DNA from: Erythrobacteraceae bacterium | GTDB taxonomy: Bacteria > Pseudomonadota > Alphaproteobacteria > Sphingomonadales > Sphingomonadaceae | NCBI GenBank assembly: GCA_027486035.1 | Contig: JAIXPX010000034.1 | Span: 1 to 64,000 of the forward strand | DNA: 64,000 bases | Reading direction: 5' to 3' | Shown: positions 10,598 through 52,576 of the stretch, in pieces | Numbering within the stretch: position 1 is the stretch's first letter | How the letters are laid out: each line of letters opens with the position of its first letter | Program-made: the position numbers and the translations under genes | The notes under the pieces: model-generated | Told to the model about the DNA's origin: nothing | What the model saw: the letters and a program-made list of their open reading frames with translations, nothing else | Database searches by the model: none

Positions 10598-10613
10598 TGT
10601 TTCACGTGAAACA
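10598..10613. other. parS chromosome partition site (perfect)
   Basis: TGTTTCACGTGAAACA is a perfect 16-bp palindrome identical to the parS consensus bound by ParB/Spo0J-type proteins. It is intergenic, between the amtB terminator and a phased repeat array. ParB loads here as a clamp and recruits ParA and SMC. No parAB genes are in the window. Confidence 0.92.
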
Positions 10614-10640: not shown

Positions 10641-10690
10641 CCAGCAGGAGTCTAGAGGGGGTCTGGAGGGGGTCTAGGCAGGGCCTAACC
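10641..10690. repeat. 11-bp phased CT(A/G) repeat array next to parS
   Basis: CTAG, CTGG, CTAG and CTAA start at 10652, 10663, 10674 and 10685, exactly 11 bases apart, in the context GTCTRGAGGGG. The array begins about 28 bases right of parS. The same kind of array follows the parS at 51681. The intergenic stretch 10402-10768 holds no gene that I can support. Confidence 0.55.
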
Positions 10691-30116: not shown

Positions 30117-30442
30117 GCGGCGCGCAGCGTGCCTTCGGCAAGCCACTGGCGCGCGCGGCGCTGGGCTTCGGCGATTTCGCGGGCGGTCATCTCGTCGGCG
30201 ATGCTGGCCCGGCAATCGGCGGCTTCCTCGTGGCCGCGCGCGGCGGCGAGGTTGAACCACTTGTGCGCTTCGATGAGGTCGCAGGGCGCGCCGTTGCTAC
30301 CCATCGAGAAAGCCACCCCCAGGTCGAAGCAGGCCCCCGCCTGACCCCTGCCAGCCTCGGCCAGCCAGGCTCCAAGCACGCCTTCGCGGCGTGTTTCATG
30401 TGAAACATTGGCAGAAGCCGTGGCGATCGCGATGACGGTCAT
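30113..30442 (-). CDS. Sel1-like repeat protein
   Basis: This 109-residue protein has one clear Sel1-type TPR-like helical pair, LGVAFSMGSNGAPCDLIEAHKWFNLAAARGH, followed by a charged helix (REIAEAQRRARQWLAE). Short Sel1 proteins mediate protein contacts; no partner is evident. The N-terminal codons NVSHET are written by a near-perfect parS sequence, see 30392. Bases 30443-30719 upstream hold no gene that I can support, only the promoter regions of this gene and dksA. Confidence 0.8.
   Translation of the reverse strand: MTVIAIATASANVSHETRREGVLGAWLAEAGRGQAGACFDLGVAFSMGSNGAPCDLIEAHKWFNLAAARGHEEAADCRASIADEMTAREIAEAQRRARQWLAEGTLRAA
30392..30407. other. parS-like site inside a coding sequence
   Basis: TGTTTCATGTGAAACA differs from the perfect parS palindrome by one central base (C to T). 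It lies in codons 12-17 of the Sel1-like gene. Coding parS sites with this kind of single change are known to bind ParB in other bacteria. Confidence 0.7.
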
Positions 30443-50729: not shown

Positions 50730-50854
50730 CTCGCTCTCTCCCTTGTCGGGACCAGCTATCGGGCGCGAGGGGGCGCAGCGACAATGCCCACTTTTGGCAA
50801 GGGTCCGAGGATGCCGCGGCGTGTTACTCCGCCGCCCGAGAGAGGAGACTCGTG

Positions 50855-51664
50855 ATGGGACAATTGCAGGGCAAGACCGCGGTCATTCTGGGGGCGGCAT
50901 CGGAAGGCAACATGGGCCAGACCATCGCCCGCCTGTTCGCGCAGGAAGGCGCGAAGGTCATGGTCGCAGGCCGCAAGGAAGCGCCGCTCGCTGCGTTAGC
51001 TGCTGAATTAAAAGGCGAATATGCGCTGTGTGATATCGCCAAGAAGCCCGAGGTCAACGCCATGGCCGACAAGGCGGTGGCCGCTTTCGGGCGGGTCGAT
51101 ATCGCCATCAACACCACCGGCTGGGGCCTGCTCGCCAGCCTCGAGGAGATCACCGACGAACAGCTCGACCAGATCGTCGATCTCCAGTTCAAGGGGGTGC
51201 ACCACTTCCTGCAGGCCTTCGTGCGGGTCATGAGCGCGCAGGCACCCACTGGCGGATCGCTGATCTCGCTGTCCTCGGCGACGACCAAGGCGATCATCAC
51301 CAACCACGCCGCCTATATCGGCACCAAGCGCGGCTCCGAGGCGCTGATCGAGTGTGTTGCCAATGATTACGGGCACTTGGGAATCAAGGCTAACACCGTC
51401 TCGCCCGCTTTTACCGATAGCCCCATGACCCACGAGAGCTTTCAGGTGCCCGGGCTCACCGATGCCTTCCTGCCGCGCTACCCGATGGGCCGGCTCAACA
51501 CGGTCGACGATGTCGCCCATGCCTGCCTCTGGCTCAGCACCGACCAGGCCTATGTGACGGGGGCGAATATCCAGCCCAATGGCGGCCTCATCATGCGCGG
51601 CAATCCGCAGGCCCATGATGTTGCCGCAGCGGTCGGGGCGGCGATGGCGAAGTTACAGCAGTAA
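50855..51664 (+). CDS. SDR family oxidoreductase
   Basis: The protein has 269 residues from ATG 50855 with GAGGAG nine bases upstream (GTG 50852 is the track start). The glycine motif is atypical: LGAASEGNMGQTIARLF. It has NTTGWGLLASLEEIT, a Ser block LISLSSATTKAIITNHAAYIGTKRG with Y-x3-K, and the end YVTGANIQPNGGLIMRG. It is the only plus-strand gene between two minus-strand groups; a parS follows its stop. Confidence 0.88.
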   Translation: MGQLQGKTAVILGAASEGNMGQTIARLFAQEGAKVMVAGRKEAPLAALAAELKGEYALCDIAKKPEVNAMADKAVAAFGRVDIAINTTGWGLLASLEEITDEQLDQIVDLQFKGVHHFLQAFVRVMSAQAPTGGSLISLSSATTKAIITNHAAYIGTKRGSEALIECVANDYGHLGIKANTVSPAFTDSPMTHESFQVPGLTDAFLPRYPMGRLNTVDDVAHACLWLSTDQAYVTGANIQPNGGLIMRGNPQAHDVAAAVGAAMAKLQQ

Positions 51665-51680: not shown

Positions 51681-51696
51681 TGTTTCACGTGAAACA
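51681..51696. other. parS chromosome partition site (perfect)
   Basis: TGTTTCACGTGAAACA is identical to the site at 10598 and to the ParB consensus. It is intergenic between two convergent SDR genes, where readthrough is low. Confidence 0.92.
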
Positions 51697-51713
51697 CTGC
51701 CGCCGATGCCCCG

Positions 51714-51802
51714 CTGGAACCAGCCTGGAGCGCGCCTGAACGCGTCTGGAGGGGGCCTGGAGGGGGTCTGGAACGCGCTGGAGCCGCGCTGCTGCCCGCC
51801 TA
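51714..51802. repeat. Helically phased CTGGA repeat array next to parS
   Basis: CTGG, CTGA or CTAG begins at 51714, 51725, 51736, 51746, 51757, 51768, 51778, 51789 and 51800: intervals of 11, 11, 10, 11, 11, 10, 11 and 11 bases. The common unit is GYCTGGAGGGG. It fills the space between parS and the stop codon of the convergent SDR. Confidence 0.62.
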
Positions 51803-52576
51803 GTACTGCGCCGTCCCGCCATCGACGCTGATCTGCTGGCCGGTGATCCCGCCGCCCGCCTCGCTGGCGAGCAGCACCGCCACGGCGGCCACTTCCTCGA
51901 CCGTGTTCGGCCGCTTGATCGCGGCTTCCTGCGCGAAGAGGTCGATCATCTCCTCGAACTCGAGCCCCATCGCCTTGGCGGTGGCGGGTCCGTTGTTCCT
52001 GATGATGTCGGTGATGACGATGCCCGGGCAGATCGCGTTGACCGTCACGCCCGCCGCACCCACTTCGCGTGCGAGGCTCTTGGTCATCCCGTTCACCGCG
52101 TGCTTGGCGGCGCTGTAAGCGGTCAGCACCGGCTTGCCGTGCTTGCCCTCCATCGAGGAGATGTTGATGATCCGCCCGAAGCCCTTCTCCAGCATGGTCG
52201 GCAGCGCCCGGCGCGAGGCCCAGAAGGTCGAATAGACGTTCCACTTCATCGCCTCGTCGAAGGCGTGGTCGGAAAGGTTGACGAGCGGCTGCAGATCGCC
52301 CGCGCCGCCCGCATTGTTGACCAGAATGTCGAGCGTCCCGAAATGCGCCGCCACCTTGTCGACGAAGCCCTCGAGATCGGACTGGCTCATGACATCGCCT
52401 GCGACGAACAGCGCGTTTGCGCCCGCCCCCAGCTCCGCGAGCACCTTGGCGCCCTTTTCGGCATTGCGCGCGAAGAGCGCGACCCTGGCGCCCTCGGCCA
52501 GAAACGCCTCGGCGATGCCGCGCCCCATGCCTGCCGTGCCCCCGGTGATCGCGGCGACCTTTCCTGCCAGTTTCAT
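51800..52576 (-). CDS. SDR family oxidoreductase
   Basis: The protein has 258 residues from ATG 52576; the track extension is a translated REP element. It has AAITGGTAGMGRGIAEAF, ARNAEKGAKV, NNAGGAGDLQPLVNL, NISSMEGKHGKPVLTAYSAAKHAVNG (Ser, YxxxK), NAICPGIVITDI, and GQQISVDGGTAQY. It resembles 3-oxoacyl reductase/hydroxysteroid dehydrogenase-type SDRs. The stop codon lies in the last unit of the phased repeat array. Confidence 0.91.
   Translation of the reverse strand: MKLAGKVAAITGGTAGMGRGIAEAFLAEGARVALFARNAEKGAKVLAELGAGANALFVAGDVMSQSDLEGFVDKVAAHFGTLDILVNNAGGAGDLQPLVNLSDHAFDEAMKWNVYSTFWASRRALPTMLEKGFGRIINISSMEGKHGKPVLTAYSAAKHAVNGMTKSLAREVGAAGVTVNAICPGIVITDIIRNNGPATAKAMGLEFEEMIDLFAQEAAIKRPNTVEEVAAVAVLLASEAGGGITGQQISVDGGTAQY

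Follow-up and report, generated by a model that had tools for sequence, protein, structure and literature searches.

One-sided, helically phased repeat arrays adjoin dispersed parS sites in a clade of Erythrobacter and Porphyrobacter

The window, by which we mean the whole 64,000-nucleotide stretch that was analyzed, holds two perfect copies of the parS palindrome TGTTTCACGTGAAACA, at 51681-51696 and 10598-10613, both mentioned in a preliminary description. The first lies between two convergent genes for SDR-family dehydrogenases. The near gene (50852-51664, plus strand) has its 3' end 17 bp before parS, while the 3' end of the far gene (51800-52573, minus strand) faces an array, present on one flank only, whose 11-bp units have the consensus GGGGTCTRGMN and which runs outward from parS at 51709-51805 on the plus strand, its register fixed by the palindrome. 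The preliminary description had counted nine starts of CT(G/A)(G/A) to the right of this parS; CT does begin at 51714, 51725, 51736, 51746, 51757, 51768, 51778, 51789, and 51800, with exactly the spacings reported (11, 11, 10, 11, 11, 10, 11, and 11), but the eighth unit reads CTGC. The last unit had rightly been seen to form the stop codon of the convergent SDR gene, as CTA at 51800-51802 on the minus strand. The second parS carries the like array claimed for it, on the same side, at 10647-10690 (plus strand; CT at approximately 10652, 10663, 10674, and 10685, which are slots 2-5 of the register described below), its first unit being two slots further out than that of the 51681 array. A one-mismatch parS, TGTTTCATGTGAAACA (30392-30407, with 0.05 expected), has no array. 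Judged by flank sequence (L087), its apparent counterpart in the complete relative G153 is a perfect parS, also without an array. The site at 51681 has a counterpart in L086, likewise between both SDR genes.

The window's own assembly (2.55 Mb in 52 contigs) contains 44 perfect 14-mer parS cores, or 62 when up to one mismatch is allowed. When the two flanks of every perfect site were read, arrays appeared at the majority of the dispersed sites (30 of the 44 perfect sites, against 42 of 55 in G153), and at none of the five perfect parS around gidA-rsmG-parA. In these two fully read genomes the parS near parAB lack arrays, and arrayless sites make up approximately a quarter to a third of the perfect copies. 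The preliminary description had asked whether the phased motif is equally frequent at control sites; it is not, as chains of at least three in-phase units occur at 33 of 98 parS flanks of the own genome vs. 2 of 1572 control pieces. At the helical period, the 184 motif positions give a Rayleigh power of 93, and phasing is almost perfect among the 117 matches that score 5 bits or more against the unit matrix (power 103). The phased arrays are real and not a product of chance.

The unit matrix was obtained by expectation-maximization (EM) on 405 flanks, and reads GGGGTCTRRM with approximately 10.7 bits, the G-run and the TCT both being informative. A run shifted by half a turn is an invalid control, as the matrix re-registers itself. 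The unit, with the consensus GGGGTCTRGM(N), is confined to one flank and always reads outward from parS: outward matches outnumber inward ones by 117 to 13 in the own genome and by 174 to 19 in G153, and the flanks opposite the arrays at the same sites have only 6 and 5 matches, respectively. Arrays on both sides were found at only one of 169 array-bearing sites, a set made up of loci from named genomes that were picked for having arrays and of two whole genomes that were not so picked.

Measured from the parS core, the slots that units occupy are centered at 17.4, 28.1, 38.9, 49.8, 60.4, and 71.5 bp in the own genome and at 17.7, 28.3, 39.0, 49.7, 60.6, and 71.3 bp in G153 (overall: 17.5, 28.2, 38.9, 49.8, 60.5, and 71.3 bp), with a standard deviation of approximately 0.5 bp and a drift that does not grow out to 71 bp. 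The period from linear fits is 10.84 ± 0.03 bp in the own genome and 10.73 ± 0.03 bp in G153, and the Rayleigh estimate is 10.76 ± 0.05. Since occupancy is highest in slots two to four and drops past the sixth, it is the distance from parS that is fixed and not the phase alone. GG steps are phased and CC steps hardly so, and the A+T content of the array oscillates with an amplitude of 0.20-0.25. Several flanks in G163 retain the A+T phase but with other bases, for example CCTATAACCCG repeated, and have lost the G-run, leading us to suspect that recognition may be looser than the consensus. The proposal that parS is flanked by an array in phase with the helix, its units all on one face, holds well beyond the window: the feature is genome-wide, clade-wide, polar, and locked to parS.

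A counterpart in G153 was identified for 34 of the 44 own parS, although two of these matches are weak. The side and polarity of the array are kept in all 18 orthologous pairs with scored arrays on both members, and yet the units of orthologous arrays fail to align base for base between the own genome and G153. Selection keeps the lattice at orthologous places, while the sequence of its units turns over. Across the order, many perfect parS were found only in this genus and, as the genus was sampled rather than exhausted, within that sample the expansion of parS is confined to a single Erythrobacter/Porphyrobacter ParB clade. ParB proteins of the clade have at least 77% identity to the own ParB, whereas those of other genus members, whose genomes have 0-2 perfect parS, have at most 70%. 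Oriented pairs of units 11 bp apart number 47, 45, and 41 in three clade genomes with many parS vs. none in six members of the genus that lack dispersed parS. Relatives that keep parS without the array, which the preliminary description had named as evidence against its proposal, do exist outside the clade, yet these also lack dispersed parS. When named genomes were scanned for parS plus array, the matches listed came only from Erythrobacter/Porphyrobacter isolates and from certain metagenome-assembled genomes (labeled Porphyrobacter, Erythrobacteraceae, Sphingomonadales, or Alphaproteobacteria); the culturable carriers among the matches listed are Erythrobacter colymbi, E. dokdonensis, E. sanguineus, and Porphyrobacter sp. 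AAP60.

Arrays tend to lie at gene ends. By a home-made and crude gene caller, in 54 of 66 cases (p = 2e-7) the far gene has its 3' end toward the array, as the near gene does in 43 of 66; this caller, trained on GC3-rich reading frames, replaced a first one that gave weaker orientation biases. No common function was seen among the genes flanking arrays, the neighbors tested being ordinary genes. A replichore polarity of the kind known for KOPS or Chi was rejected, as the side of the array relative to chromosome arm is even in G153 (~20/39). The parS sites span the G153 chromosome, and with one-mismatch copies included they are also present opposite the origin: between 2476 and 2855 kb there is no perfect parS, but one-mismatch parS with arrays are present, so that an apparent Noc-like exclusion from the terminus vanishes. 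Site spacing is indistinguishable from random, and a search for dif with the E. coli consensus gave no match.

Arrays that do not adjoin a perfect parS are of two kinds. In some, a parS that is decayed or has one mismatch lies upstream at the matching distance (L318, L323, L324, L325, L329, and L332-L334), and others have no recognizable parS (L319, L320, L321 with its counterpart L335, L322, L326, L257, and L242). The latter imply that the array also exists alone and that contact with ParB is not needed everywhere. Among the parS-less arrays, some lie between recA and alaS (L321:1476 and L335:1569), by lexA (L257:1501), and by recF (L320:1470), and a parS-linked array (L052) adjoins ssb; this is possibly coincidence, or possibly a link with recombination genes. 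There is also a second class of dispersed parS with no array and with a one-sided GAAC(A) exactly 7 bases past the parS core (e.g., L016:1569, L121:1541, and L073:1501). GAAC at this distance, which is one helical turn from the half-site, occurs at 10 of 51 non-array parS, and the two classes are almost mutually exclusive.

The own ParB (gene at L018:7565-8527) is an ordinary protein of 320 residues, and a cluster of parS adjoins gidA-rsmG-parA-parB. Residues that are fixed in the clade and different outside it cluster in the helix-turn-helix (HTH; own I175, V177, K181, M193, and M194), where they represent 5 of 26 positions vs. 8 of 235 elsewhere (p = 0.005). Own M193 aligns with Caulobacter position 179, one of the four positions that determine ParB/Noc specificity (PMC7383237). 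The association of the HTH substitutions with dispersed parS represents one evolutionary event and is no more than a correlation.

By their palindrome, which is identical to that of chromosomal ParABS systems, their ordinary ParB, and the cluster by gidA-rsmG-parA-parB, parS and ParB are ordinary members of such systems. However, chromosomal ParABS has few sites, near the origin, whereas here there are approximately 50 across the chromosome, about two thirds of them with a one-sided oriented lattice. Bacillus Noc and its binding sites (NBS) likewise present many palindromes of the ParB family scattered over the chromosome; to our knowledge, no array has been described at NBS. Unlike that system, the sites here are parS and not NBS, a palindrome that differs from parS at positions 1 and 6 (PMC7383237), and whereas NBS are absent from the terminus region, one-mismatch parS with arrays occupy it in G153. 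Plasmid centromeres offer a different likeness: R1 parC, which is read by ParR, consists of phased direct repeats, and P1 parS is composite. Like the array, these have head-to-tail repeats of approximately one turn or join accessory boxes to a ParB site, but in our clade it is a chromosomal parS of the ParB type that bears the repeats. MraZ boxes also resemble the array in being G-rich direct repeats about one turn apart. MraZ was rejected as the reader, however, as mraZ is missing from all eight Erythrobacter genomes tested (no PF02381 match in G000, G153, G161, G282, G272, G169, G162, or G331, with control genomes positive). No description of dispersed parS or of parS-linked arrays was found in the open-access papers searched.

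What can be said plainly is that the lattice exists, that it is polar, one-sided, and locked to parS, and that its clade is one in which parS sites are scattered along the entire chromosome. A register held to within half a base for seven helical turns, together with one-sidedness and strict polarity, argues for a rigid, oriented assembly registered by ParB-parS. Our leading, still tentative explanation, to which we assign somewhat short of an even chance, is that the array is an oriented lattice of sites for a DNA-binding partner that docks head to tail beside ParB-parS and so gives parS a direction. ParB on parS would set the origin of the lattice, which would offer approximately four to six recognition sites per element, one per helical turn, and as far as ~75 bp every unit would be read from a single face of the helix. 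A dedicated protein would read the units and contact ParB, and this candidate partner would assemble head to tail on one flank of the ParB-parS complex. The symmetric parS would thereby gain direction, with sliding ParB-CTP clamps perhaps stopped or held on one side. The ~fifty ParB stations at gene ends could then serve as chromosome-organizing points, for condensin loading or nucleoid anchoring. Among the roles that the preliminary description had offered, a binding platform is the best supported; that of a spreading barrier or loader would also be compatible.

Two other readers each appear unlikely, if worth serious thought. The first is DNA gyrase, which might wrap the array. Gyrase sites of E. 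coli have two 47-bp flanks in which G+C varies with a period of 10.75 bp (PMC6379681). The array shares this alternation of base composition, with its A+T oscillation of 0.20-0.25 and its period of 10.73-10.84 bp, and its position at gene 3' ends (54/66) would suit gyrase as well. However, a period near 10.75 bp could equally be the in vivo helical repeat, and the gyrase motif is symmetric and strand-neutral, whereas the array has a sequence-specific unit and is one-sided and strictly polar; the arrays show neither two symmetric arms nor an aperiodic 36-bp gate joined to a second arm.

ParB itself, to which we would give about the same small chance, might instead read the units as weak half-sites on the helical face that it uses at parS, such that a one-sided ladder feeds or retains it. 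This is attractive because of the HTH changes, including that at the equivalent of Caulobacter position 179, and of the second parS class, in which a GAAC resembling a half-site lies one turn away on a single side. The units are moreover oriented like the outward half-site and fall close to its phase, and P. aeruginosa ParB binds half-parS sites (PMC10419367). Against this, GGGGTCTRGA is scarcely like GTGAAACA, the G-run is left unexplained, and as the clade retains perfect parS, ParB would need a second sequence preference.

We consider it quite improbable that the C-rich strand is a Rho utilization site, with RNA from the far gene presenting YC dimers every 11 nt and Rho halting transcription before this meets ParB-parS. 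The transcript would indeed be C-rich and G-poor with 11-nt spacing, which we take to resemble rut geometry, and the far gene's 3' end toward the array in 54 of 66 cases fits such a function. Conversely, a signal acting in RNA has no need of half-base register to parS, at least 12 of the 66 cases lack a called gene of this kind, and the strand bias is lost in some G163 arrays; Rho could account for the bias toward gene ends but would leave the register unexplained.

Less probable still is DNA that is intrinsically curved or easily melted, with no specific reader, which the preliminary description had also offered. Helical phasing and the G163 flanks that keep the A+T phase with other sequences speak for it, and the own genome has a slight excess of curvature with one parameter set. 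However, predicted curvature barely exceeds that of dinucleotide shuffles in the own genome (mean z 0.32 and 1.46) and does not exceed it in G153 (-0.24 and -0.07). Curvature requires neither strict polarity nor a 10-bit unit, and these, with the half-base locking, are why we favor an oriented protein lattice. That the arrays are a repetitive or mobile family without function is hardly credible, because despite the many similar copies, some of them without parS, it is place, side, and register that are conserved between species and not the unit sequences, and the 10/11 spacing matches the helical turn and not a constant copy length.

As the composite of parS and lattice departs from NBS/Noc, from the symmetric gyrase motif, from MraZ boxes, and from curved DNA, and as no description of it was found in the open-access papers searched, we cautiously regard it as a kind of its own, although its reader may yet belong to a known family. 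The oriented lattice beside ParB-parS suggests a previously undescribed protein assembly docking next to ParB. With more reserve than we attach to the docking itself, we propose that this Erythrobacter clade may have evolved a chromosome-wide organizing system of ~fifty directed ParB stations, in which a rigid, ParB-anchored, head-to-tail protein lattice on an oriented 10.75-bp repeat would make an undescribed composite centromere. Nothing in the parS palindrome sets a direction, and ParB clamps are believed to slide to either side, and so a directional element of half-base precision at dozens of parS would provide a handle on directional ParB spreading, condensin loading, or nucleoid anchoring. 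As carriers are culturable and close relatives without the array exist, the two can be compared directly.
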